This document shows positions 15,057 through 26,555 of a stretch of DNA of 64,000 nucleotides, piece by piece; position 1 is the first letter of the stretch; every line of letters begins with the position of its first letter. Source of the stretch: an uncultured Phascolarctobacterium sp. (lineage in GTDB: Bacteria > Bacillota > Negativicutes > Acidaminococcales > Acidaminococcaceae); the NCBI GenBank assembly GCA_949295115.1, contig CASFJU010000008.1, positions 1-64,000 of the forward strand, in the 5' to 3' direction. Made by a program: the position numbers and the translations under genes. Below the pieces are notes generated by a model, which worked only from the letters and a program-made list of their open reading frames with translations, made no database searches and was not told the origin of the DNA.

Positions 15057-17651
15057 ATGAAAAAGGAACAGTTTAACGTAACCGGCATGACCTGCGCCGC
15101 CTGCTCCGCCCGCGTGGAAAAAGCGGTGGGCAAGCTGGCGGGCGTGGATAAGGTTGCCGTGAACCTTTTGAAAAACAGCATGGTGGTCGATTACGACGAT
15201 GCCGCGCTGAACACGCAGGGCATTATCGACGCCGTTGTAAACGCGGGCTATGGCGCCTCGCTGAAAAACGCAGAGGTTAAAAAATCCGGCAAGGCCGCCG
15301 ATACGACGGGTGCGGATATTGCCAAACAGGAATACGAAAGCATAAAGCGCCGCTTAAAGCTGTCGCTGATTTTTGCCGTGCCGCTGTCCTATATTTCTAT
15401 GGGGCACATGATGGGCTGGCCGCTGCCCGGGTTTTTCCTCGGCGTGGAAAACGCGATGATTTTTTCGCTGACGCTGCTGCTTTTGGTAATTCCGGTGGTG
15501 TTCATCAATTTTAAATTTTTCCGCGTCGGGTTTAAAACGCTGTTCGGGCTTGCGCCGAATATGGATTCACTGATTGCCATCGGTGCGTCGGCGTCGCTTG
15601 TTTACGGCGTGTACGCGCTGTACAAAATCGCTTACGGCTTCGGCCACGGCGATTTGGCGATGGTTCACCGTTTTTCGATGGATTTGTATTTTGAATCGGC
15701 AGGCATGATTTTAACGCTGATTACCTTCGGCAAATTCCTTGAAGCGCGCGCCAAGGGCAGGACTAGCGACGCTATCAACAAGCTGATGAATTTAGCGCCG
15801 AAAACTGCCGTTGTGGAACGTGACGGTGCAGAAACCGAAGTGCCGGTGGAAGAAGTTGAAAAGGGCGATATCCTCGTCGTACGCAGCGGCATGAGCGTGC
15901 CGGTGGACGGCGTGGTGACGGAAGGGCAAGCCGCCGTGGATGAATCTGCCATTACGGGCGAGAGCATACCGGTGGAAAAAGAAGCGGGCGCAAAGCTCAT
16001 CGGCGCGACGGTGCTGAAAAGCGGCTTTTTAAAAATGCGTGCCGAAAAGGTCGGCGAAGAAACCACGCTGGCGCAGATTGTGCGTTTGGTGGACGACGCT
16101 ACCGGCAGCAAGCCGCCCATCGCCAAAATGGCGGATAAAGTCAGCGGCGTATTTGTACCGGCGGTTATCGGCATTGCCGCTGTTACCGGCGCAGTGTGGC
16201 TGTTGCTGGGCGAAAGTTTTGAATTTGCTCTCTCCAACGCCATAGCGGTACTGGTTATCAGCTGCCCGTGCGCGCTGGGGCTGGCAACGCCTACTGCGAT
16301 AATGGTCGGCACGGGGCGCGGCGCTTCCGGCGGCGTGCTGATTAAATCGGCCGAGGCGCTGGAAACCGTGCATGAAGTAAATACTGTGGTGCTGGATAAA
16401 ACCGGCACCATTACGCAGGGCACGCCGGGCGTGACGGACGTGCTGTACGGCAGAAACGTGGGCGAAGAAAGGCTGCTGCAGCTGGCCGCTTCGCTGGAAA
16501 AATATTCCGAGCATCCGCTGGCGGAGGCGATTGTAAGCCACGCCGCCGCTAAAAACATCCGGCTTGTGCCGGTAACAGGCTTTGCACAGGAAGCGGGCCG
16601 CGGCATTAAAGGCTTAATTGAAGGCAAACTGTGCCTCGGCGGCAACCGCAAAATGCTGGCGGATGCCGGTTTGTACAATGAGGACGCCAAAGCCGTTGAG
16701 CAAAAACTGGCTGGCGAAGGAAAAACGCCGCTGTTCTTTGTGTATGACGGCAATTTAATTGGCATTATCGCGCTGGCGGACACGGTTAAGCCTACCAGCC
16801 GCGCGGCAATAGCCGAGCTGAAACGCATGGGGCTGGAGGTTGTAATGCTTACCGGCGACAACGCGCAGACCGCGCAGGCGATACAGAAAGAAGTCGGCGT
16901 GGACCGCGTGGTAGCAGAGGTTTTGCCGCAGGATAAGGAAAATGAAATCCGCCGCTTGCAGGAGCAGGGCAAAAAAGTTGCCATGGTCGGCGACGGCATT
17001 AACGATGCGCCTGCTCTGGCGCGTGCCGATGTGGGCATTGCTATCGGTGCGGGTACGGATATCGCCATTGAATCGGCAGACTTGGTACTGATGAAAAGCG
17101 ACCTGCTGGACGTTGCCGGTGCCGTGCAGCTTGGGCATGCCGTTATCCGCAACATTAAGCAAAATTTGTTCTGGGCGCTGTTTTACAACGCCATCTGCAT
17201 CCCCGTGGCGGCAGGTTTGTTTTACCCTGCCTTCGGCTTAAAGCTCAGCCCCATGCTGGGCGCGCTGGCGATGAGCTTCAGTTCTGTTTTTGTAGTTACC
17301 AACGCCCTGCGTTTAAGGTTTTTTAAACCCGTGTACACCGCTGCCGCAGATGTAAGCGCGGCGGCAGGCGCTGCGCGCGAATGCAGGACGATGGCGATAG
17401 ATATTAAACAAAGCACAAAAGAAAGGGTTGATACCATGAAAAAAGTATTGGATGTAGAAGGCATGATGTGCCAGCACTGCGTGGCGCACGTTAACAAAGC
17501 ATTGAGCGGCATTGAAGGCGTGGAAGCCGTTGAAGTATCGCTGGAGGGCAAAACCGCAACCGTAACCATGGGCAAGGAAGTTGCCGACGACGTACTTGCC
17601 AAAGCCGTTGTTGACGCTGGCTACGAAGTAAAAGGCGTTAAAACTTTATAA
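15057..17651 (+). CDS. copA: Copper-translocating P1B ATPase with N- and C-terminal HMA domains
   Basis: An 864-residue inner-membrane Cu+ export ATPase. An N-terminal HMA metal domain has GMTCAAC (10-16). Eight membrane helices follow, with the CPC site near 403-405 (SCPCALGLATPT), phosphorylation DKTGT near 447, SEHPLAEA in the nucleotide domain and GDGINDAP near 645-652. A charged linker leads to a second HMA domain (about 794-864) with the variant site GMMCQHC, equivalent to a fused CopZ chaperone. An ATG at 17436 preceded by GAAAGGG could also start a free 71-residue CopZ. The last codons and terminator are duplicated 4.7 kb downstream, bounding the AT-rich island. HxlR is divergent and probably regulatory. 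Confidence 0.95.
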   Translation: MKKEQFNVTGMTCAACSARVEKAVGKLAGVDKVAVNLLKNSMVVDYDDAALNTQGIIDAVVNAGYGASLKNAEVKKSGKAADTTGADIAKQEYESIKRRLKLSLIFAVPLSYISMGHMMGWPLPGFFLGVENAMIFSLTLLLLVIPVVFINFKFFRVGFKTLFGLAPNMDSLIAIGASASLVYGVYALYKIAYGFGHGDLAMVHRFSMDLYFESAGMILTLITFGKFLEARAKGRTSDAINKLMNLAPKTAVVERDGAETEVPVEEVEKGDILVVRSGMSVPVDGVVTEGQAAVDESAITGESIPVEKEAGAKLIGATVLKSGFLKMRAEKVGEETTLAQIVRLVDDATGSKPPIAKMADKVSGVFVPAVIGIAAVTGAVWLLLGESFEFALSNAIAVLVISCPCALGLATPTAIMVGTGRGASGGVLIKSAEALETVHEVNTVVLDKTGTITQGTPGVTDVLYGRNVGEERLLQLAASLEKYSEHPLAEAIVSHAAAKNIRLVPVTGFAQEAGRGIKGLIEGKLCLGGNRKMLADAGLYNEDAKAVEQKLAGEGKTPLFFVYDGNLIGIIALADTVKPTSRAAIAELKRMGLEVVMLTGDNAQTAQAIQKEVGVDRVVAEVLPQDKENEIRRLQEQGKKVAMVGDGINDAPALARADVGIAIGAGTDIAIESADLVLMKSDLLDVAGAVQLGHAVIRNIKQNLFWALFYNAICIPVAAGLFYPAFGLKLSPMLGALAMSFSSVFVVTNALRLRFFKPVYTAAADVSAAAGAARECRTMAIDIKQSTKERVDTMKKVLDVEGMMCQHCVAHVNKALSGIEGVEAVEVSLEGKTATVTMGKEVADDVLAKAVVDAGYEVKGVKTL

Positions 17652-17654
17652 AAA
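17609..17654 (+). repeat. Left 46-bp direct repeat (copA 3' end)
   Basis: These 46 bp cover the last 13 codons of copA, its stop and part of the A-run. They are identical to 22326-22371. The following terminator is also repeated in diverged form (17666-17700 versus 22392-22425). The repeats bound the AT-rich three-gene island. Confidence 0.95.
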
Positions 17655-17665
17655 AATAAAATTGT

Positions 17666-17700
17666 AAAAGCAGGAGTGATAATCATTCCTGCTTTTATTT
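17666..17700 (+). terminator. copA terminator, left copy
   Basis: AAAAGCAGGA (17666-17675) pairs with TCCTGCTTTT (17687-17696). The right copy beyond the island differs only in the loop region. Confidence 0.88.
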
Positions 17701-17728
17701 ATGCAAAAATAAAATTTATCGTAAAATA

Positions 17729-17759
17729 TTGTTATTAAGCATATTAAATATGATATAAT
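17729..17759 (+). promoter_or_regulatory. Island promoter with palindromic operator
   Basis: TATAAT (17754-17759) is clear; TTGTTA (17729-17734) is a possible -35 at 19 bp. A perfect palindrome CATATT-A-AATATG (17740-17752) fills the spacer and is likely a repressor site. Confidence 0.55.
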
Positions 17760-17796
17760 AAACGAAACAAGAGTCCGGTAAAGGTGTGTAAATTTT

Positions 17797-18690
17797 ATGT
17801 CAAATGAGTTATTTAATAAATTTTTAAATTTAATGACGGATGATGAATTGAAAGGAATGATTTCTAATCAAAAGATTATAATATCAGGATTTAGAAATGA
17901 TGCTAAAAATATACCAAATGTTTTATTAAAAAACATTATTAAAGATTATTTAAAAAAGCATAAAAGTTCAAAAACATTAGAGAGTAAGGAAGATTATCTA
18001 GAACTAAAAGATAAAAATATAAATGAATTCAATTTACTTGTTCTAAATGATTTATATAGGGATATAAATATAGAAATAATTAATGAGTTTTTAACTAATA
18101 AAGAAAAATCTAATAAAGCAATTAATAATTTATCTTCAATGAGTTTTCGTAAAGAAAATAATGAATTAAAAGTTCAAAAAGAAAAACTAGATAAGCGGAT
18201 TCTAGAATTGACACGTGAAATAGAAAAAAATAAAAAAATATATGACAAAGAAAATGATATATTGAAACATGAAAATCAAAAATTAGTAAAAGAAATAGAA
18301 AATCTAAAAGAAATTATAAGTAAATACAAAGAAAATATAGAAAAGAATAATGTAGCGTTAAATGAAATATTGGGTATTAATAAATTCCAGAAAGAAAAAT
18401 TGGAATATTATGATAGTATATTTAAAACATATAATATTATTTTGTTTAAATTAGAAATAAAAGATAAACTAAACTTTCCATATAATTTTGAAATTATAAA
18501 TAATTATGCAGAGTTAGAAATTGCTTTGAATAATAATAACTTTACAGATTTTTGGTATTTAAAAAACTCTCTAGATCCATTTCTTTGGAATAAAATATTA
18601 ATGTTATTAAAAAAATCAAGTGATGTAATTAATATTAGAGCAATAGATGAAAATGTATTAGAATTATTAAAGATAGGAGTAAAATTATGA
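17797..18690 (+). CDS. Coiled-coil protein of McrBC-like system
   Basis: A 297-residue protein with no family I recognise. Residues about 1-110 are helical and lysine-rich. A long heptad-rich coiled coil runs from about 120 to 195 (KEIENLKEIISKYKENIEK-type repeats), then a 100-residue C-terminal domain (YYDSIFKTYNIILFKL onward). No catalytic motif is visible. Its stop overlaps the start of the McrB-like gene by 4 bp, so the three genes form one translationally coupled unit. Coiled-coil partners occur in CoCoNuT-type McrBC relatives, where they are thought to recognise or assemble on nucleic acid; that role here is inference. Very AT-rich. Confidence 0.75.
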   Translation: MSNELFNKFLNLMTDDELKGMISNQKIIISGFRNDAKNIPNVLLKNIIKDYLKKHKSSKTLESKEDYLELKDKNINEFNLLVLNDLYRDINIEIINEFLTNKEKSNKAINNLSSMSFRKENNELKVQKEKLDKRILELTREIEKNKKIYDKENDILKHENQKLVKEIENLKEIISKYKENIEKNNVALNEILGINKFQKEKLEYYDSIFKTYNIILFKLEIKDKLNFPYNFEIINNYAELEIALNNNNFTDFWYLKNSLDPFLWNKILMLLKKSSDVINIRAIDENVLELLKIGVKL

Positions 18691-20567
18691 GTAAAGAGAT
18701 TAGAGTTTTAGGAAAATTAGTAACAAAAGAAAATTTATTGAAATATACTGGTGATGAATTTAAAAAACCTGTTTTTCAAAATAGTGATTACGAAAATGTA
18801 GTAGTAGTAGAACCAATCTCCGATTTATCAGAATATTTTGCGGGGAAACAATTTGGGTATTGTAGTGCATGGCGTTTAAATAAAAAATATAATTTGATGA
18901 GTATAGAAGATATTGAAAATGATTTAAAAGATAAATATATTAGCTTTCATCCAAGAAGATATAGTAGTGATACTTATGGAAGAGATAATAAATTTCAAGC
19001 GTATGATTCTAAAATTATTGAAGATGTAGTTGCAAGCGATATAAAAAAATATATACCTTTACCATATTTTGATTTGGACGAAATGAGGATGAATGTAGAT
19101 GAATTTGAAGAAACTATAAAATCCGGTAAGCCGTTGAATATAGTGCCAGAAATGCCTTATGAAGATCCTAGCATGTTCATAGTAAAAAAACAAAAAAATA
19201 ATTTACAAGAAAGTGATATTTTTGTTTTTTTAAATATTGAAAGTATGAAGTATGACATGTATACTACAATTATAAAATTCTGTAATAATAAAATAGTTAA
19301 AAAGATTTTGCCTACTGAAGTTTATGAAAATATTATATTAGATCCGTGGAGAGGAAGTAATGTTATTTTTATAGAAGCAGATGTAGAAAGAGATCTTAAT
19401 AATAATTTTAAGTTAGATTGTGAAATTGTTGGTGAATTAAATAGTAATAACACTGAAGGAGAGATTACTGTTTGTGAAAAAGAAAATAATTTAATTAAAT
19501 TGTTAGATAATAATTCGCGTAAATTAGGATTATTATATGATAAAAAGGATTTAATAAATTTTCATATTGCAGTTAAATCGTCAGGATTGGTTATTCTTTC
19601 TGGTATGAGTGGTACGGGTAAATCTAAATTAATAAATCTGTATGCTAAAACATTAGGGTTAGATGATAGATTTAAAATGATACCCGTTAGTCCGGCATGG
19701 ACTGACGATGCTGATTTATTGGGTTACTTAGATTATAGAAATATGATATATCGTCCTGCTGATACTGATTTGGTTAATTTTTTAATAGATGCAGAAAAAC
19801 ATTCCGATGAATTATATATGGTATGTTTTGATGAAATGAATTTAGCTAGGGTAGAACATTATTTTTCACAATTTATTTCAGTGTTGGAAAATAATGATTC
19901 TGAAAGGTATATACAACTTTACAATTCTAATTTAAAAGAACGTGTTTATAATAGCAATATTTATCCACCAAAAATTTTGATAAGAAAGAATGTTATTTTT
20001 GTTGGAACTGTCAATATTGATGAATCAACCTTTCATTTTTCAGATAAAGTATTAGATAGAGCGAGTGTTATTAAGCTTAATATGCGTCCTTTTAATGATT
20101 TGGCGGAGATAAAGAGAAATATTATTTCAGAAGAAATAGAATATATTAACTTTAATAAAGAAGAATTTTTTGAAACAAGTGCGATTGGTTTTACGATGAC
20201 TGAAGAAGAATTAAATTTATTAGATGAGTTAAGTCAAATTTTAAAGTCTCATAATCCGCGAATGGGTATTGGTTATAGAATTGTAACACAAATTAATCAA
20301 TATCTTTCTTCTATACCTGAAAATATTGATTATAGCCGTCGAGAAGCTATAGATAATTTAATAGTACAAAGAATATTAACAAAAATTAGAGGCGCAGATG
20401 ATCAAATTATAAAGTTAATAGGCAAATTAGATGATGATAATAATTTGCAAGATAGCATTTTAAATAATTTATTTAATTTTTATGTAAATGTGTCAGACTT
20501 TAAGCAATCTAAAAATGTATTAATACAGAAAGCGAAAGAGTTGAATTTGTATGGATATACCATTTAA
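18687..20567 (+). CDS. McrB-like AAA+ NTPase
   Basis: A 626-residue protein. The N-terminal 270 residues are unassigned and probably hold target recognition. An AAA+ domain follows with Walker A GMSGTGKS (306-313), Walker B VCFDEMN (Asp382, Glu383) and the VNIDES segment (442-447), which occupies the place of the MNTADRS signature of GTP-using McrB. The arrangement VGTVNIDEST...FSDKVLDRA is typical of McrB relatives paired with DUF2357 nucleases. It should form a ring motor that drives the nuclease encoded next. It overlaps its neighbours by 4 and 17 bp. AT-rich and embedded in the copA-bounded island. GTP versus ATP use cannot be read. Confidence 0.88.
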   Translation: MSKEIRVLGKLVTKENLLKYTGDEFKKPVFQNSDYENVVVVEPISDLSEYFAGKQFGYCSAWRLNKKYNLMSIEDIENDLKDKYISFHPRRYSSDTYGRDNKFQAYDSKIIEDVVASDIKKYIPLPYFDLDEMRMNVDEFEETIKSGKPLNIVPEMPYEDPSMFIVKKQKNNLQESDIFVFLNIESMKYDMYTTIIKFCNNKIVKKILPTEVYENIILDPWRGSNVIFIEADVERDLNNNFKLDCEIVGELNSNNTEGEITVCEKENNLIKLLDNNSRKLGLLYDKKDLINFHIAVKSSGLVILSGMSGTGKSKLINLYAKTLGLDDRFKMIPVSPAWTDDADLLGYLDYRNMIYRPADTDLVNFLIDAEKHSDELYMVCFDEMNLARVEHYFSQFISVLENNDSERYIQLYNSNLKERVYNSNIYPPKILIRKNVIFVGTVNIDESTFHFSDKVLDRASVIKLNMRPFNDLAEIKRNIISEEIEYINFNKEEFFETSAIGFTMTEEELNLLDELSQILKSHNPRMGIGYRIVTQINQYLSSIPENIDYSRREAIDNLIVQRILTKIRGADDQIIKLIGKLDDDNNLQDSILNNLFNFYVNVSDFKQSKNVLIQKAKELNLYGYTI

Positions 20568-22368
20568 ACTTATTTTAAAAACAGGTTTTAATTTTAATAA
20601 TGAATATAAAAATATAGATTTTTTTACATCTCTTGAAGAGATAAATAATAAAAATTTTGAGACAAAATTGGAAATTGTTGAAAATAATGATGTTTCATTA
20701 AAGATAATTTCTGATTATGATGTAAAGGTGGAAATGGACGGATTTGATGGAGTGTTTGTTGATGAAATTAAACACAAAGATGGATATTATCTAACAATCA
20801 AAAATAAAGAAATAAAAGTATTTACTTTTGATAATTTTCCTTTACCGCCAGGTGAGTATATTTTAAGTGTAGAAGTATTGAGGAAAAAATACTATACTGT
20901 TTTTAAAGTAAAGCCTTCACAAGTAGAAGAACAAGATTGGCAGTATATGGTAGATCTTGTTTTAGATAGATTAAAAATACTAGCTTTAGACATTATTAGA
21001 AAGAAAATATTTGTAACAAAGGGAAATGCTATTGAAACTATAAATTCCGAGTTATGGTTGAAAATGCAAATAATTAATTCTTCTTTTAACAAAGTTATGG
21101 GGACATTGGATGATCTGGTTACAAAACCCCATAATAAGATTTCGAAAAAATATATTAGTTGTGATTATAATGAAATCATTCAAGAAGATAGAAAATCAAA
21201 TAAATTAAATGCTAAAAGCAAAAATCAAATTAATTACCAAGTGGGATTAAAAAAATATATTGATTATGATTTATCTGAAAATAGATATATAAAAAAGATA
21301 ATTTTAGAACTTGATAATTTGATATTAGCATTTTTGAATGAAGTTTCAGAACAACATAAGTTTTTACAAGGAAGTATTAATAAAAATATTTATCAAACCA
21401 ATAGAGATATTTCTGCAAATCAGCGCAACAAAGAAGCAATAGACTTGTTAGAGGATTTTAAAAGCAAAGGTAGAAAAATAAATTATATAATTAATATTTT
21501 AAAATCGACTGAATGGTTTAAAAATATAAAAACTAATTCATATGATAGAATTTCTGTTCAAAGTTTACTAGATCCGCGATATAATATATTAAGCAAACTA
21601 AGTAAAGATTTAAAAAATAATAACATTAAGTATAATACAGATAATTTATTTGCTTTTTTATATAAAAGAACTGATAAATTATATGAAGTATATGGATTTT
21701 TAAAGATATTTGATGTGTTAATTAATTTAGGATTTGAAGTTGAAAGTAGTTTAAAGACAGATAAAATTAATAATGAAATAAAAATTTTTGGACTAGAAGA
21801 AGGAGATATTTTCATATTAAAAAAAGATGATTTAAAAATTAAGTTGGTTTATGATGCAATTTTGTCTAATAAATCCGAAGAGACTGATAAGGAAAATCCA
21901 TTGTATACAAAAGGTCGGCATAATAGACCAGATGGTAGAATGGATTGTTTTATTAACATAGAAAATGATTATTATTATGCAGGTAGTTTAATAATTGATT
22001 TTAAATATCGAAAGAAAAATAGTTTTTGGAGTTCAGGAAATAATAATAGTCAGGAGCAGTTAAGGCAATATAGAAATGATATAACATCAAAATTTTATCT
22101 AAACTGGTCAATCGAAGATTCTGTTGATAAAAGAGTTGCACAAGAAGTGTGGGTATTATATCCAGATAGATATGATCCAAATAAATTAGATGTCGAAATA
22201 GATGATAAAATAAAATTTTTATCGTTTGTTCCTCAACATGAAGCATTTATTGATGAGCGGATAGAAGAGTTTGTAAACTATGTAAAAAAAGATGCATGGA
22301 AGAAATTTAAATGGAATAAATTAAATGTTGACGCTGGCTACGAAGTAAAAGGCGTTAAAACTTTATAA
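20551..22368 (+). CDS. McrC-like DUF2357 / PD-(D/E)XK nuclease with copA-derived tail
   Basis: A 605-residue partner of the McrB-like motor. The N-terminal half is beta-rich. The DUF2357 hallmark SENRYIKK occurs at 242-249, followed by a helical region. The C-terminal nuclease core shows RPDGRMD (459-465) and IIDFKYR with Asp483 and Lys485, matching PD-(D/E)XK. It should cut DNA or modified DNA when activated, as in type IV restriction. The final 13 residues, VDAGYEVKGVKTL, are identical to the end of CopA and are encoded by the right 46-bp repeat, so the native C-terminus was replaced at the island junction. The core is intact, so activity may be kept. Confidence 0.88.
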   Translation: MDIPFKLILKTGFNFNNEYKNIDFFTSLEEINNKNFETKLEIVENNDVSLKIISDYDVKVEMDGFDGVFVDEIKHKDGYYLTIKNKEIKVFTFDNFPLPPGEYILSVEVLRKKYYTVFKVKPSQVEEQDWQYMVDLVLDRLKILALDIIRKKIFVTKGNAIETINSELWLKMQIINSSFNKVMGTLDDLVTKPHNKISKKYISCDYNEIIQEDRKSNKLNAKSKNQINYQVGLKKYIDYDLSENRYIKKIILELDNLILAFLNEVSEQHKFLQGSINKNIYQTNRDISANQRNKEAIDLLEDFKSKGRKINYIINILKSTEWFKNIKTNSYDRISVQSLLDPRYNILSKLSKDLKNNNIKYNTDNLFAFLYKRTDKLYEVYGFLKIFDVLINLGFEVESSLKTDKINNEIKIFGLEEGDIFILKKDDLKIKLVYDAILSNKSEETDKENPLYTKGRHNRPDGRMDCFINIENDYYYAGSLIIDFKYRKKNSFWSSGNNNSQEQLRQYRNDITSKFYLNWSIEDSVDKRVAQEVWVLYPDRYDPNKLDVEIDDKIKFLSFVPQHEAFIDERIEEFVNYVKKDAWKKFKWNKLNVDAGYEVKGVKTL

Positions 22369-22371
22369 AAA
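22326..22371 (+). repeat. Right 46-bp direct repeat (copA 3' end)
   Basis: An exact copy of 17609-17654, read in frame as the end of the McrC-like gene. Together with the duplicated terminator it marks the right boundary of the island. Confidence 0.95.
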
Positions 22372-22391
22372 TTACAGCACAATAAAACTAT

Positions 22392-22425
22392 AAAAGCAGG
22401 AGTGGTTATTCATTCCTGCTTTTTG
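22392..22425 (+). terminator. Terminator, right copy
   Basis: AAAAGCAGGA (22392-22401) pairs with TCCTGCTTTTT (22414-22424). It is homologous to the copA terminator. Confidence 0.88.
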
Positions 22426-22461
22426 CTAATTTATTAAAATTTTGATAAAATAAACTAAATG

Positions 22462-22490
22462 TTGCCAGTTTTTTACATAAATGGTAGAAT
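22462..22490 (+). promoter_or_regulatory. Promoter of toxin-antitoxin operon
   Basis: TTGCCA (22462-22467) and TAGAAT (22485-22490), spacer 17 bp. Transcription would begin just before the leader hairpin. Confidence 0.6.
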
Positions 22491-22509
22491 AAAGGTACAA
22501 ATAAGCATT

Positions 22510-22556
22510 TAACCCACCGTAATGTTTTAATTCATTATAACAGTGGGCTTTTATTT
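22510..22556 (+). terminator. Leader hairpin / attenuator before the antitoxin gene
   Basis: CCCACCGTAATG near 22513 pairs with CATTATAACAGTGGG ending near 22547, and a T-rich stretch follows. It lies between promoter and start codon, so it may limit expression of the operon. Confidence 0.55.
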
Positions 22557-22578
22557 TCTCTGTAAGGAGGTTTAAACT

Positions 22579-23112
22579 ATGTTGAAAGCAACGGATATTG
22601 CCAATTTCTTCATAAGTTTATCAAATTCCGCAGAAGAAGGCCATATTACCAATATGAAGGTGAATAAATTAGTTTATTTTGCTCAGGCATGGAGTATGGT
22701 GACTTTAAAACAAAAGCTTTTTGATGAAAAAATAGAAGCGTGGCCGCATGGCCCCGTTATTCCATCTGTATATAATGCGTTCAATCAATATAAAAGCCAT
22801 AATATAAATGAACCCTGCGGAATTTTTGATGAAAATGTTTTTACTTCAGAACAGCTTGATTTGCTGACTGATGTGGCATTAGCTTACGGCGCGTATAGTG
22901 CAGCTTATTTAAGAGGATTAACACATAAACCGGGCACGCCGTGGAATATGGTATATGAAGAGCATAAAAGAAATGTAATTCCCGATAAAATGATTTATAA
23001 TTACTTTAAAAAACAGCCGCCTATGTTTAAAAACAGCATTGAAAAAGAAAATTTTGTAGGCTATCGTGATAATGAAGGGTATTTAGTTTTACCAAAGGAA
23101 CTGAATGAATGA
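22579..23112 (+). CDS. Panacea-domain (DUF4065/SocA-like) antitoxin
   Basis: A 177-residue protein with the Panacea/DUF4065 pattern: NMKVNKLVYFAQAWSMV near the N-terminus, EAWPHGPVIPSVYNAF in the middle and THKPGTPWNMVYE toward the end. Such proteins act as antitoxins with varied toxins in PanAT pairs. TAAGGAGG precedes ATG 22579. Its stop overlaps the start of the next gene (ATGA at 23109), the usual coupling in toxin-antitoxin operons. It lies directly right of the McrBC-like island and may be part of the same defence cluster. GC content is intermediate between island and host. Confidence 0.85.
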   Translation: MLKATDIANFFISLSNSAEEGHITNMKVNKLVYFAQAWSMVTLKQKLFDEKIEAWPHGPVIPSVYNAFNQYKSHNINEPCGIFDENVFTSEQLDLLTDVALAYGAYSAAYLRGLTHKPGTPWNMVYEEHKRNVIPDKMIYNYFKKQPPMFKNSIEKENFVGYRDNEGYLVLPKELNE

Positions 23113-23441
23113 TAGATTACAATGATTTAAATAAATGGGATGTGTGTCTGGCGGCAGTAAAATTTGAGGATGAACCGGATGTAGTAAAAATACGTCCTGT
23201 AATTATTTACGATAAACATGAGGCGTTTTTACTTTCATTTAAGGTAACAGGACAGCCGCCGAGAGAATGCTGTAAAGGTGAATATATTCTTCAAGAATGG
23301 GAAGCAGCCGGTTTGGATACGGTGTCAGTAGTAAGGACATCAAAACGATTAAAGTTGGAGCCGAAAGATTTTACTAAAAAACTGGGTCGTTTGCGTACGA
23401 AAGATATTATGGCATTAAAAGTAATTATGATGGGTTGGTAA
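23109..23441 (+). CDS. Probable PemK/MazF-like toxin partner
   Basis: A 110-residue protein resembling the SH3-like PemK/MazF barrel: DVCLAAVKFED, KIRPVIIYDK and AFLLSFKVTG are the first strands, and the C-terminal half (DTVSVVRTSKRLKLEP) matches the region around the S/T-x-R site. MazF-type toxins cut mRNA. The match is by pattern, so confidence in the family is moderate. It overlaps the Panacea antitoxin by 4 bp and the operon ends in a terminator. Together they are a candidate PanAT pair with a ribonuclease-like toxin. Confidence 0.7.
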   Translation: MIDYNDLNKWDVCLAAVKFEDEPDVVKIRPVIIYDKHEAFLLSFKVTGQPPRECCKGEYILQEWEAAGLDTVSVVRTSKRLKLEPKDFTKKLGRLRTKDIMALKVIMMGW

Positions 23442-23473
23442 AGCACTTAACTAAATTGTTGAGTGCTTTTTAT
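23441..23473 (+). terminator. Terminator after the toxin gene
   Basis: AAGCACT and AGTGCTT form the stem and TTTATTT follows. Confidence 0.75.
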
Positions 23474-23485
23474 TTATAAAAAATA

Positions 23486-23540
23486 ACCCTTCCCGCAGGA
23501 AGGGTACAGTGCCGGGTGCAACAGCCCGGCATTTTTATTT
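23486..23540. terminator. Two hairpins at the end of the merR-2 operon
   Basis: ACCCTTCC/GGAAGGGT (23486-23505) and TGCCGGG/CCCGGCA (23510-23531, then a T-run on the plus strand). They separate the convergent toxin and merR genes. Confidence 0.7.
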
Positions 23541-24057: not shown

Positions 24058-25320
24058 TCAGGACCTCTCTTTGGTGATGGTGACGCTGTCAAACTCCTTG
24101 CCGTCGGGCAGATATGCTTTAAAGGTTAAAGCGCCATCCGTTTTTTCCAGCGTCAGGTAGTTGGCGTCCTCCGGCTGGGGCGCAAGGGCTGCGTCGGCGG
24201 GGTTACGCTGCCACAGGTTGGCGTAACGTACGCTGCCTGCCACGCCGGTTAAAATGTAGGTGGTGCCGCTGCTGTCCGCCGCAAAGTTTTTCATCGGCAC
24301 GCGGCGGCGGTAGGTGTGCAGGTGCGCCGTCAGTACGGCGTCTACGTTAAACTCGTCAAACACCGGCATCAGCTGCTGCGCCCACGGCGTAAACTGAACG
24401 GTTGCCGGGTCAAAGCTGTTGGGCCGGTCGGTAAAGGCGTAGCGCAAAACGTCCTTGTGCATCAGTACAACTTTCCATTTGGCACCGGTAGCCGCAAGGT
24501 CATTGCGCAGCCACTCAAGCTGCTGTGCCATTAAGTTTGGGTTAAACTCTGCCATTTCGTCGGTCTGCGAATTTAAAACCGTAAAATGCACGCCGTTGTA
24601 ATCAAAGCTGTAATACTGGTTGCGGTTGTCGCTGCCGTTGGCGGGCAGGTTAAACAGCGTAAGGTACGGCGTGGGCCAGCCAACCTGCCAATCCAGCGTG
24701 TAGGTTTCGTGGTTGCCCATCACCGGCACAAAGGGTATGTTTTCAATCATCGGCTCAACGCTGCTGAACCAGGCGTTCCACTGGCTTAAATCGTAGCCGT
24801 TGTCCACCAAATCACCCATGTTGATGAAAAACGCAGCGTCCTTGTTATTGGCATAAGCGTTGTCGGCCAGCTTATGCCAGCCGCTGTAATCGCTGGATTG
24901 CGAATCCGGAAAAATCAGCGCCTTAAAATCGCCGCCGCTTGCCGTCTGCAAAGTTTGCCAGCCCGTGCGGCAGCTTTCGTAACCGGCGCGGTATTGATAG
25001 CTTGTGCCGGGTTCAAGCCCGGTCAGCTTGGCGGTATAAACGTAAATCCTGCGCCCGTCCACCGTAAAATCTGCCGCTTCTGCCGCTGCGGTTTTAATTT
25101 CGCCGCCGTCCGTGCGGTATTCTGCCAGCGGTTTTTTCAGTGCTTCATCCGCCTGCCACATAATGGTGCGGCCGGTGCTGCTGTCGGCGGTAATCATCTG
25201 GCGTAGGTGCGTAACTCCATCTGCCGCGGCAAAATTTTTATCCGCCGTGGCGGCGTTAAACGCGCAGCCCGCCGCTAAAAACACGGCCATAACTATTAAA
25301 TATTTAAGGTAATTTTTCAT
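24058..25320 (-). CDS. Lipoprotein purple-acid-phosphatase-like phosphoesterase
   Basis: A 420-residue protein with a lipoprotein signal (lipobox LAAGC at about 15-19), an FN3-like N-terminal domain typical of purple acid phosphatases (about 40-130), then a calcineurin-like domain: FPDSQSSD, NMGDLVDNG, PVMGNHETY, VLMHKDV and LTAHLHTYRR give the dimetal ligands in order. It should hydrolyse phosphate esters at the cell envelope. ATG 25320 is preferred, since AAAGGAG lies 8 bp upstream and the signal then begins properly. It is the first gene of the operon with a 35-residue protein and merR-2, and is divergent from another phosphoesterase. Both are under 19-bp-spacer promoters. Confidence 0.9.
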   Translation of the reverse strand: MKNYLKYLIVMAVFLAAGCAFNAATADKNFAAADGVTHLRQMITADSSTGRTIMWQADEALKKPLAEYRTDGGEIKTAAAEAADFTVDGRRIYVYTAKLTGLEPGTSYQYRAGYESCRTGWQTLQTASGGDFKALIFPDSQSSDYSGWHKLADNAYANNKDAAFFINMGDLVDNGYDLSQWNAWFSSVEPMIENIPFVPVMGNHETYTLDWQVGWPTPYLTLFNLPANGSDNRNQYYSFDYNGVHFTVLNSQTDEMAEFNPNLMAQQLEWLRNDLAATGAKWKVVLMHKDVLRYAFTDRPNSFDPATVQFTPWAQQLMPVFDEFNVDAVLTAHLHTYRRRVPMKNFAADSSGTTYILTGVAGSVRYANLWQRNPADAALAPQPEDANYLTLEKTDGALTFKAYLPDGKEFDSVTITKERS

Positions 25321-25345
25321 AAGCATTGCTCCTTTGGTTACTAAT

Positions 25346-25376
25346 AATATAACAGTTGTACCAAGCTCCAAGTCAA
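25346..25376 (-). promoter_or_regulatory. MerR-type promoter of lipoprotein phosphoesterase operon
   Basis: On the minus strand TTGACT (25376-25371) and TATATT (25351-25346) are 19 bp apart. The start of the spacer, TGGAGC, is the same half-site as at 9720-9725. Confidence 0.7.
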
Positions 25377-25398
25377 GCAGTTTTTTCAAAAATTTTCC

Positions 25399-25429
25399 TT
25401 GACTTGAAGCACACTCCAAAGTATATATT
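25399..25429 (+). promoter_or_regulatory. MerR-type promoter of membrane phosphoesterase
   Basis: TTGACT (25399-25404) and TATATT (25424-25429), spacer 19 bp with imperfect dyad CTTGAAG-CACA-CTCCAAAG. Only 22 bp separate it from the divergent promoter. Confidence 0.7.
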
Positions 25430-25460
25430 ATATACATAACAATGTGTAAGGAGATTTGCA

Positions 25461-26555
25461 ATGAACCTTTTTATGATTGTCATGTATTCGTACCTCATCG
25501 CCATGGGCATTGCCGTGTGGTTTTATTACCGCACGCTCATCCCCGGCTTTACCTCGTGGCTGTGGCCGCTGGCTGTTGTGGGCGCAACGGCAAGCTACCT
25601 TGTCAGCCACAGCGGCTATATCGTCCATCCGGAACCTGTCGCGCGCGCACTGGCGTGGATTGGCAACGTGTGGATTTTGTTCGGCTTTTACAGCCTGATT
25701 TTAATGCTCATCAACGGCGTTTTAATTATTCCCGCCAAAATCCTGCACTGGCAGGTGCGTTTCAGCACGCCGTTTGCCATGGCGGGACTGGCGCTGATTA
25801 CCGGCGTTTTGGCGTTTGGCATTTACAAGGCGCAGAACCCGATTGTGCGCACCGAAGTTGTGGCAGCCGATAAAATTGCCGCCGATACCAGAATTGTGCT
25901 GGCGACGGATTTGCACCTGGGGCACATCAACGCAAAGGGCTCGGCGGAAGACCTCTGCAATCGCGTTAACGCGCTGAACCCCGATTTAATTGTCCTCGGC
26001 GGCGATATCGTCGATGAAAGAATCAGCTATGTGCTGGATAACGGTTCGCTTGCCGCGCTGGGCGGATTAAAAGCGCCGCTGGGCGTGTACGCAGTGTACG
26101 GCAACCATGATTATATGGATACTACACCCAAAGAGCTGCGCAAACTGCTGGCAGAAAGCGGCATAACCGTTTTGGAAAACGAAAGCGCCGTGCTGCTCAA
26201 CGGCATTAAGCTGACCGGCCTGCGCGATTACAGCCGCGACCGCGGCACGGAAGCGCTGGAGGCATTGGCGGCTGGCAACACAGATTATTACAGCATTTTA
26301 ATAGACCATCAGCCGCGGCGTTTAAGGGAAGCGGCGGCGCTGGGGTATGACATGTCGCTGTCCGGCCATACGCACGCCGGGCAGGTGTGGCCGTTCCGCT
26401 ACATCACAAGCAATATGTACATCACCGATTACGGCACGGCGCAGGTGGATGATTTAACCGCTATTGTCAGCAACGGCAACGGCTTCTGGGGCCCGCCGGT
26501 ACGCACCGGCCCGTATCCGGAAATCGTCCTCATCAATTTAAAGAAAACAAACTGA
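25461..26555 (+). CDS. Membrane-anchored calcineurin-like phosphoesterase (YaeI/YkuE-like)
   Basis: A 364-residue protein with about four hydrophobic N-terminal segments (residues 1-125) and a calcineurin-like domain (about 135-360). Dimetal motifs appear as ATDLHLGH, VLGGDIVDE, VYGNHDY, ILIDHQP and SGHTHAGQ. This layout matches YaeI/YkuE proteins, some of which hydrolyse lipid-linked phosphates; the substrate here is unknown. TAAGGAG precedes ATG 25461. It is divergent from the lipoprotein phosphoesterase, with back-to-back MerR-type promoters, so two exported phosphoesterases are likely induced together. Confidence 0.9.
   Translation: MNLFMIVMYSYLIAMGIAVWFYYRTLIPGFTSWLWPLAVVGATASYLVSHSGYIVHPEPVARALAWIGNVWILFGFYSLILMLINGVLIIPAKILHWQVRFSTPFAMAGLALITGVLAFGIYKAQNPIVRTEVVAADKIAADTRIVLATDLHLGHINAKGSAEDLCNRVNALNPDLIVLGGDIVDERISYVLDNGSLAALGGLKAPLGVYAVYGNHDYMDTTPKELRKLLAESGITVLENESAVLLNGIKLTGLRDYSRDRGTEALEALAAGNTDYYSILIDHQPRRLREAAALGYDMSLSGHTHAGQVWPFRYITSNMYITDYGTAQVDDLTAIVSNGNGFWGPPVRTGPYPEIVLINLKKTN

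Follow-up and report, generated by a model that had tools for sequence, protein, structure and literature searches.

A probable Type I-B CoCoNuT operon, complete and lodged at the 3' end of a copper-ATPase gene, in an uncultured Phascolarctobacterium

Three adjoining genes in the DNA of an uncultured Phascolarctobacterium very probably constitute a complete Type I-B CoCoNuT operon (cnuA-cnuB-cnuC) that was horizontally acquired and for which a McrB-like mechanism is proposed. Here we document which genes are present and in what order, how they overlap, which motifs they carry, to which family they belong and how the insertion compares with congeneric genomes, within a stretch of 64,000 nucleotides (contig CASFJU010000008.1), hereafter called the window. 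In kind the locus is ordinary, a real, complete and recently acquired member of a described subtype with a few small new points; it enlarges by one member a large and experimentally untouched defence family, and as a compact cassette of 4.6 kb and three genes, with motor and nuclease motifs intact, its function is open to direct testing.

Gene order and the named counterpart of the operon

Three open reading frames were confirmed on the + strand, at 17797-18690 (297 aa), 18687-20567 (626 aa) and 20551-22368 (605 aa); the first two overlap by 4 bp (ATGA) and the last two by 17 bp, just as a preliminary description of this DNA had noted. That description had also proposed a stand-alone coiled-coil protein, a McrB-like AAA+ motor and a DUF2357-PD-(D/E)XK nuclease, all three of which were upheld, and its claim of kinship to McrBC and CoCoNuT systems with a separate coiled-coil subunit encoded first was borne out by the published classification (PMC11090510). 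Its further suggestion of an undescribed variant did not survive: a layout of separate CnuA, CnuB and CnuC is already named Type I-B CoCoNuT, and the gene order of this described subtype matches that of the window (PMC11090510).

Type I-B CoCoNuTs occur mainly in Bacillota and comprise a separate coiled-coil CnuA with a PYD/CARD-like N-terminus and a REC C-terminus, an NxD GTPase CnuB that has no coiled coil and carries an N-terminal CSD and often a YTH-like domain, and a CnuC with Ig-like, DUF2357 and PD-(D/E)XK domains (Bell et al. 2024, PMC11090510). The window locus resembles them in gene order, in a coiled-coil CnuA that is a protein of its own and has a helical domain at the N-terminus and a receiver-like one at the C-terminus, in an NxD CnuB without a coiled coil, in a CnuC that carries DUF2357 and keeps its PD-(D/E)XK motif intact, and in its host, which belongs to the Bacillota. 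It differs in two respects: the receiver-like domain of CnuA matches at the fold level only and is without a conserved phospho-acceptor; and CnuC, unlike the described Type I-B proteins, has a tail shared with the copper ATPase CopA. In the position of the CSD and YTH-like domains of Type I-B, the window CnuB has a beta-rich N-terminal region of suitable size; that neither fold was recovered in this region by Pfam or profile-profile searches counts against the Type I-B assignment.

Other known systems are less similar. Pseudo-Type I-B CoCoNuTs have a related NxD GTPase and nuclease partner but have lost CnuA, which the window retains, whereas Type III-B has a separate CnuA like that of the window but with no recognisable domain besides the coiled coil. 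Types II and III are encoded with a CnuH helicase, and none is present in the low-GC islet that holds the operon, which contains only cnuABC and a two-gene Panacea-type pair. Escherichia coli McrBC shares the AAA+ motor fold and the DUF2357-nuclease partner, but differs by its NxxD motif, its ADAM (DUF3578) sensor domain and its lack of CnuA. Among the PADLOC models, PDC-M26A, an unnamed candidate defence protein, was matched by the window CnuB (E 1.7e-50) and by 69 of the 69 aligned CnuB proteins of the family; no PADLOC model matched CnuC, and CnuA gave only weak matches at chance level.

Domains of CnuA, CnuB and CnuC

The product of the cnuA-like gene (17797..18690, + strand), which is found by a profile of 59 homologues, has no specific family in Pfam and gives coiled-coil matches only. 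Its AlphaFold2 model (mean pLDDT 83) consists of a helical N-terminal domain of five helices (residues 3-89), a long coiled-coil helix (92-192, continuing as 194-209; domain 92-209) and a receiver-like alpha/beta C-terminal domain (210-297). Foldseek with the whole model returned nothing significant (E at least 0.17), and the receiver-like part emerged only with a second structure aligner used after Foldseek; the best fold matches of residues 210-297 were mostly response-regulator receiver domains, with Z scores of up to 7.4, a middling value that some other alpha/beta folds nearly reached. The structural check that the preliminary description had proposed for this protein yielded the coiled coil and a receiver-like end, while the N-terminal helices were covered by none of the fold-search matches listed.

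Control of Type I-B CoCoNuTs by phosphorylation, through a histidine kinase, is an idea put forward in PMC11090510. In the CnuA family alignment (60 homologues), neither the phospho-acceptor aspartate at the end of strand 3 nor the acidic pair after strand 1 is conserved, and phosphorylation control therefore appears unlikely as a general CnuA mechanism, the underlying receiver fold match being itself of middling strength. The window protein has K256 at the acceptor position, where the common pattern of the family is DEIWxxTY, and a few family members have an aspartate near this position. The absence of the receiver phospho-acceptor across the family is a simple constraint on how the complex may be regulated.

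The cnuB-like gene (18687..20567, + strand) encodes a beta-rich N-terminal region (1-240) followed by a McrB-type AAA+ motor (about 265-625), with AAA_5 above the Pfam cut-off at residues 302-443 and McrB of E. coli McrBC as the best fold match of the motor domain (6ut6, Z 17.2). Walker A (GMSGTGKS, 306-313), Walker B (CFDEMN, 380-385) and the NxD motif (N443-D445) are all present; the last lies in the stretch FVGTVNIDES (FVGTVNIDESTF), in which the NxxD of canonical McrBC is absent. NxD was found in every readable relative of the clade except L081, where the search pattern matched none. The CnuB model contains no long coiled-coil helix, that is, no fused coiled coil. The N-terminus, which the preliminary description had left unassigned, was modelled as beta-rich; the matches listed in the fold search of CnuB were taken up by the motor. 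Searches of PDB sequences with the CnuB and CnuC profiles returned neither a McrB nor a McrC relative.

The third gene (20551..22368, + strand) encodes an N-terminal region of about 100 residues, which is Ig-like in published Type I-B proteins (PMC11090510), followed by DUF2357, a PD-(D/E)XK nuclease and the CopA-shared tail. PDDEXK_7 scored above the Pfam cut-off at residues 376-540 and DUF2357 just below it (21.3 versus 23.3 bits), and the nuclease motif residues are intact (E379, P460-D461, D483 and K485). The overlap of cnuB and cnuC (20551..20567, + strand) is near-invariant across the family: it measures exactly 17 bp in 70 of the 73 measurable loci, and a start codon stands at this position in all 77 sequences including the window (ATG in 73, TTG in 3 and GTG in 1), which points to strict translational coupling of the two genes. 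Such an overlap is a simple constraint on the assembly of the complex.

Relatives, proposed function and alternative readings

Scanning species genomes gave 414 stretches encoding relatives, and the best 79 loci among them, nearly all from Bacillota, were kept. Seventy-six loci had a readable CnuB start, including one from a viral collection, and in 62 of these 76 the gene immediately before cnuB is of CnuA type, called as an ORF of at least 280 aa; the three-gene arrangement is therefore not a product of chance. The remaining 14 comprise nine loci of Veillonellaceae/Dialister type, four at or near a contig end (L043, which also belongs to the Veillonellaceae/Dialister clade, L071, L081 and L097) and one fusion. 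In this last case, in Neobacillus drentensis (L050:6071-8149), the CnuA N-terminal domain and coiled coil are naturally fused to the CnuB GTPase, which argues for a physical partnership of CnuA and CnuB. Within the Veillonellaceae/Dialister clade, L048, L049, L051, L056, L058, L059 and L063 have cnuB-cnuC without cnuA upstream and a CnuB of about 680-770 aa; in this clade cnuA seems likely to have been lost independently of the Pseudo-Type I-B published for Bacillus.

A CnuB about 38% identical to that of the window, in the same three-gene arrangement, is found in a Negativicutes genome (L010/L041), and one related locus was detected by protein in the viral collection (L102). CnuB relatives of 31-49% identity also occur on plasmids of Lactococcus, Lactiplantibacillus, Companilactobacillus, Enterococcus and Priestia; on the Lactococcus plasmid p275A (L195) the three genes stand between two ISS1 transposase genes, the last two overlapping by the same 17 bp. 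Plasmid occurrence and flanking by ISS1 agree with a putative mobile defence cassette. On the Enterococcus faecium plasmid p16-164_1 (L196), elements of the IS982 and IS30 families interrupt the AAA and nuclease genes or come between them. A three-gene cassette was also seen on a contig of a Methanobrevibacter MAG (L065), for which contamination of the MAG is possible; CoCoNuTs are nearly absent from archaea (PMC11090510).

The literature searched contained no CoCoNuT experiment, and a defence function thus stays a prediction from family, architecture and mobility. By analogy with McrBC, CnuB would assemble into a GTP-driven ring like that of McrB, and CnuC would dock on this ring through DUF2357, activate the GTPase and cut nucleic acid with its PD-(D/E)XK domain. 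The N-terminal region of CnuB may sense foreign or modified nucleic acid. CnuA would serve as a coiled-coil adaptor whose two end domains allow it to cluster or gate the complex, a role supported by the natural fusion in N. drentensis; it would probably work through protein contacts and not through phosphorylation. The predicted outcome is restriction of invading nucleic acid, abortive infection or both.

A distinct, undescribed McrBC variant, in which the CnuA and CnuB of this Negativicutes lineage have sensor domains other than the Type I-B ones and a different target, was considered and appears unlikely. It would fit the small size of CnuA, whose 297 aa fall below nearly all others (about 305-410 in most), and its identity of only 11-22% to other CnuA proteins of the family, as well as the missing CSD/YTH signal in CnuB: among 69 homologues, the 25 Pfam families hit most often were all of P-loop/AAA type, with no CSD, YTH or EVE among them, and hhalign of CnuB found no profile-profile signal against 28 EVE and 30 CSD sequences taken from related genomes. 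Furthermore, a Lachnospiraceae fragment (L023) is the only sequence that groups closely with the window CnuB in our tree (SH-aLRT 99); the pair lies inside a clade in which most relatives bear CnuA. However, the alignment of the window CnuB with members of the canonical layout extends over the full length of the protein, and the gene order, the 17-bp overlap, the NxD motor and the domain plan of CnuA are all shared with relatives. We consider it highly improbable that the genes form a classical restriction-modification system, with McrB/McrC-like subunits restricting DNA that lacks the mark of a cognate methylase. A precedent is LlaJI, reported from Lactococcus as a restriction-modification cassette that is related to McrBC and confers phage resistance (PMC1459862), and an NxD McrB of the same family (L014) adjoins a DNA cytosine methyltransferase-like gene; the window islet, however, contains no methyltransferase, and the neighbours of the operon are the copper ATPase and the Panacea-type pair. 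The L014 gene itself (L014:2943-3770) is placed next to this methyltransferase-like gene as in the methyltransferase-associated NxD group.

Insertion at the copper-ATPase gene end

The cnuABC module and the Panacea-type pair together form an islet (17660..23472) whose GC content of 18-35%, and 18-30% over the three cnu genes, compares with about 52-59% in the flanks. It lies between a copper P-type ATPase gene (CopA; 15057-17651) and the original terminator of that gene. The 3' end of the ATPase gene (17609..17654, + strand) is repeated directly at 22326..22371 (+ strand) with identity at 46 of 46 positions, and the second copy is in frame with cnuC, so that the last 13 residues of CnuC (593-605, VDAGYEVKGVKTL) and its stop come from the gene-end copy and are identical to the end of CopA. 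A short third copy of 14 bp (TTTATAAAAAATAA) is kept at the right junction (23473-23486), and for this reason the islet reads as two modules, the cnuABC module at 17660-22371 and the Panacea-type pair at 22372-23472. Five congeners each contain the repeat core a single time, whereas this genome has it at two places. A pattern search placed terminator-like hairpins after the first (17666..17696, + strand) and second (22392..22423, + strand) copies, the only two places with this pattern among six genomes of the genus.

The islet is absent from the five congeners, which also have no CnuB match, and in three of them (G002-G004; flanks about 94-96% identical) the ATPase gene is joined directly to the terminator at window position 23487, giving a clean empty site. 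Judged from these comparisons the cassette is horizontally acquired, and the gain is recent because the site is empty in close congeners. The islet shows how such a cassette can insert without destroying its target gene. No integrase was found in the islet, the viral collection contained no copA-end repeat, and no plasmid shared islet DNA beyond short stretches of the AAA gene. Two broader readings, which we hold only tentatively and rate as possible, go further. One would make CnuA a phosphorylation-independent adaptor with a family-wide pseudo-receiver, in which case the histidine-kinase control put forward in PMC11090510 would be mistaken. The other would make the 3' end of the copper-ATPase gene an attachment-like site where integrase-less defence modules accrete, each leaving a gene-end copy.

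The gene-end copy within cnuC raises the question of whether the insertion swapped the natural end of CnuC for CopA residues and broke the system, leaving a decayed or inactive remnant, as the identity of the CnuC and CopA ends might suggest. We regard this as quite unlikely: the three ORFs are intact, the nuclease residues and the Walker and NxD motifs are kept, and little or none of the CnuC body can have been lost, because the CnuC proteins of relatives finish about where the CopA tail starts. An assembly artefact was also considered, but a chance misjoin would not explain a perfect copy of the genus's copA end inside the cnuC reading frame of foreign-looking DNA.

Beside the complete cnuABC operon, the islet carries a SocA/Panacea-type antitoxin-like gene (22579-23112) that overlaps a partner gene of 110 aa (23109-23441); together they are probably a toxin-antitoxin pair. 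The partner has no Pfam or NCBIfam match, and relatives of it occur in two genomes of the class. Adjoining the islet are two divergent genes, at 24058-25461 (- strand) and 25461-26555 (+ strand), that appear metallophosphoesterase-like from their sequence.
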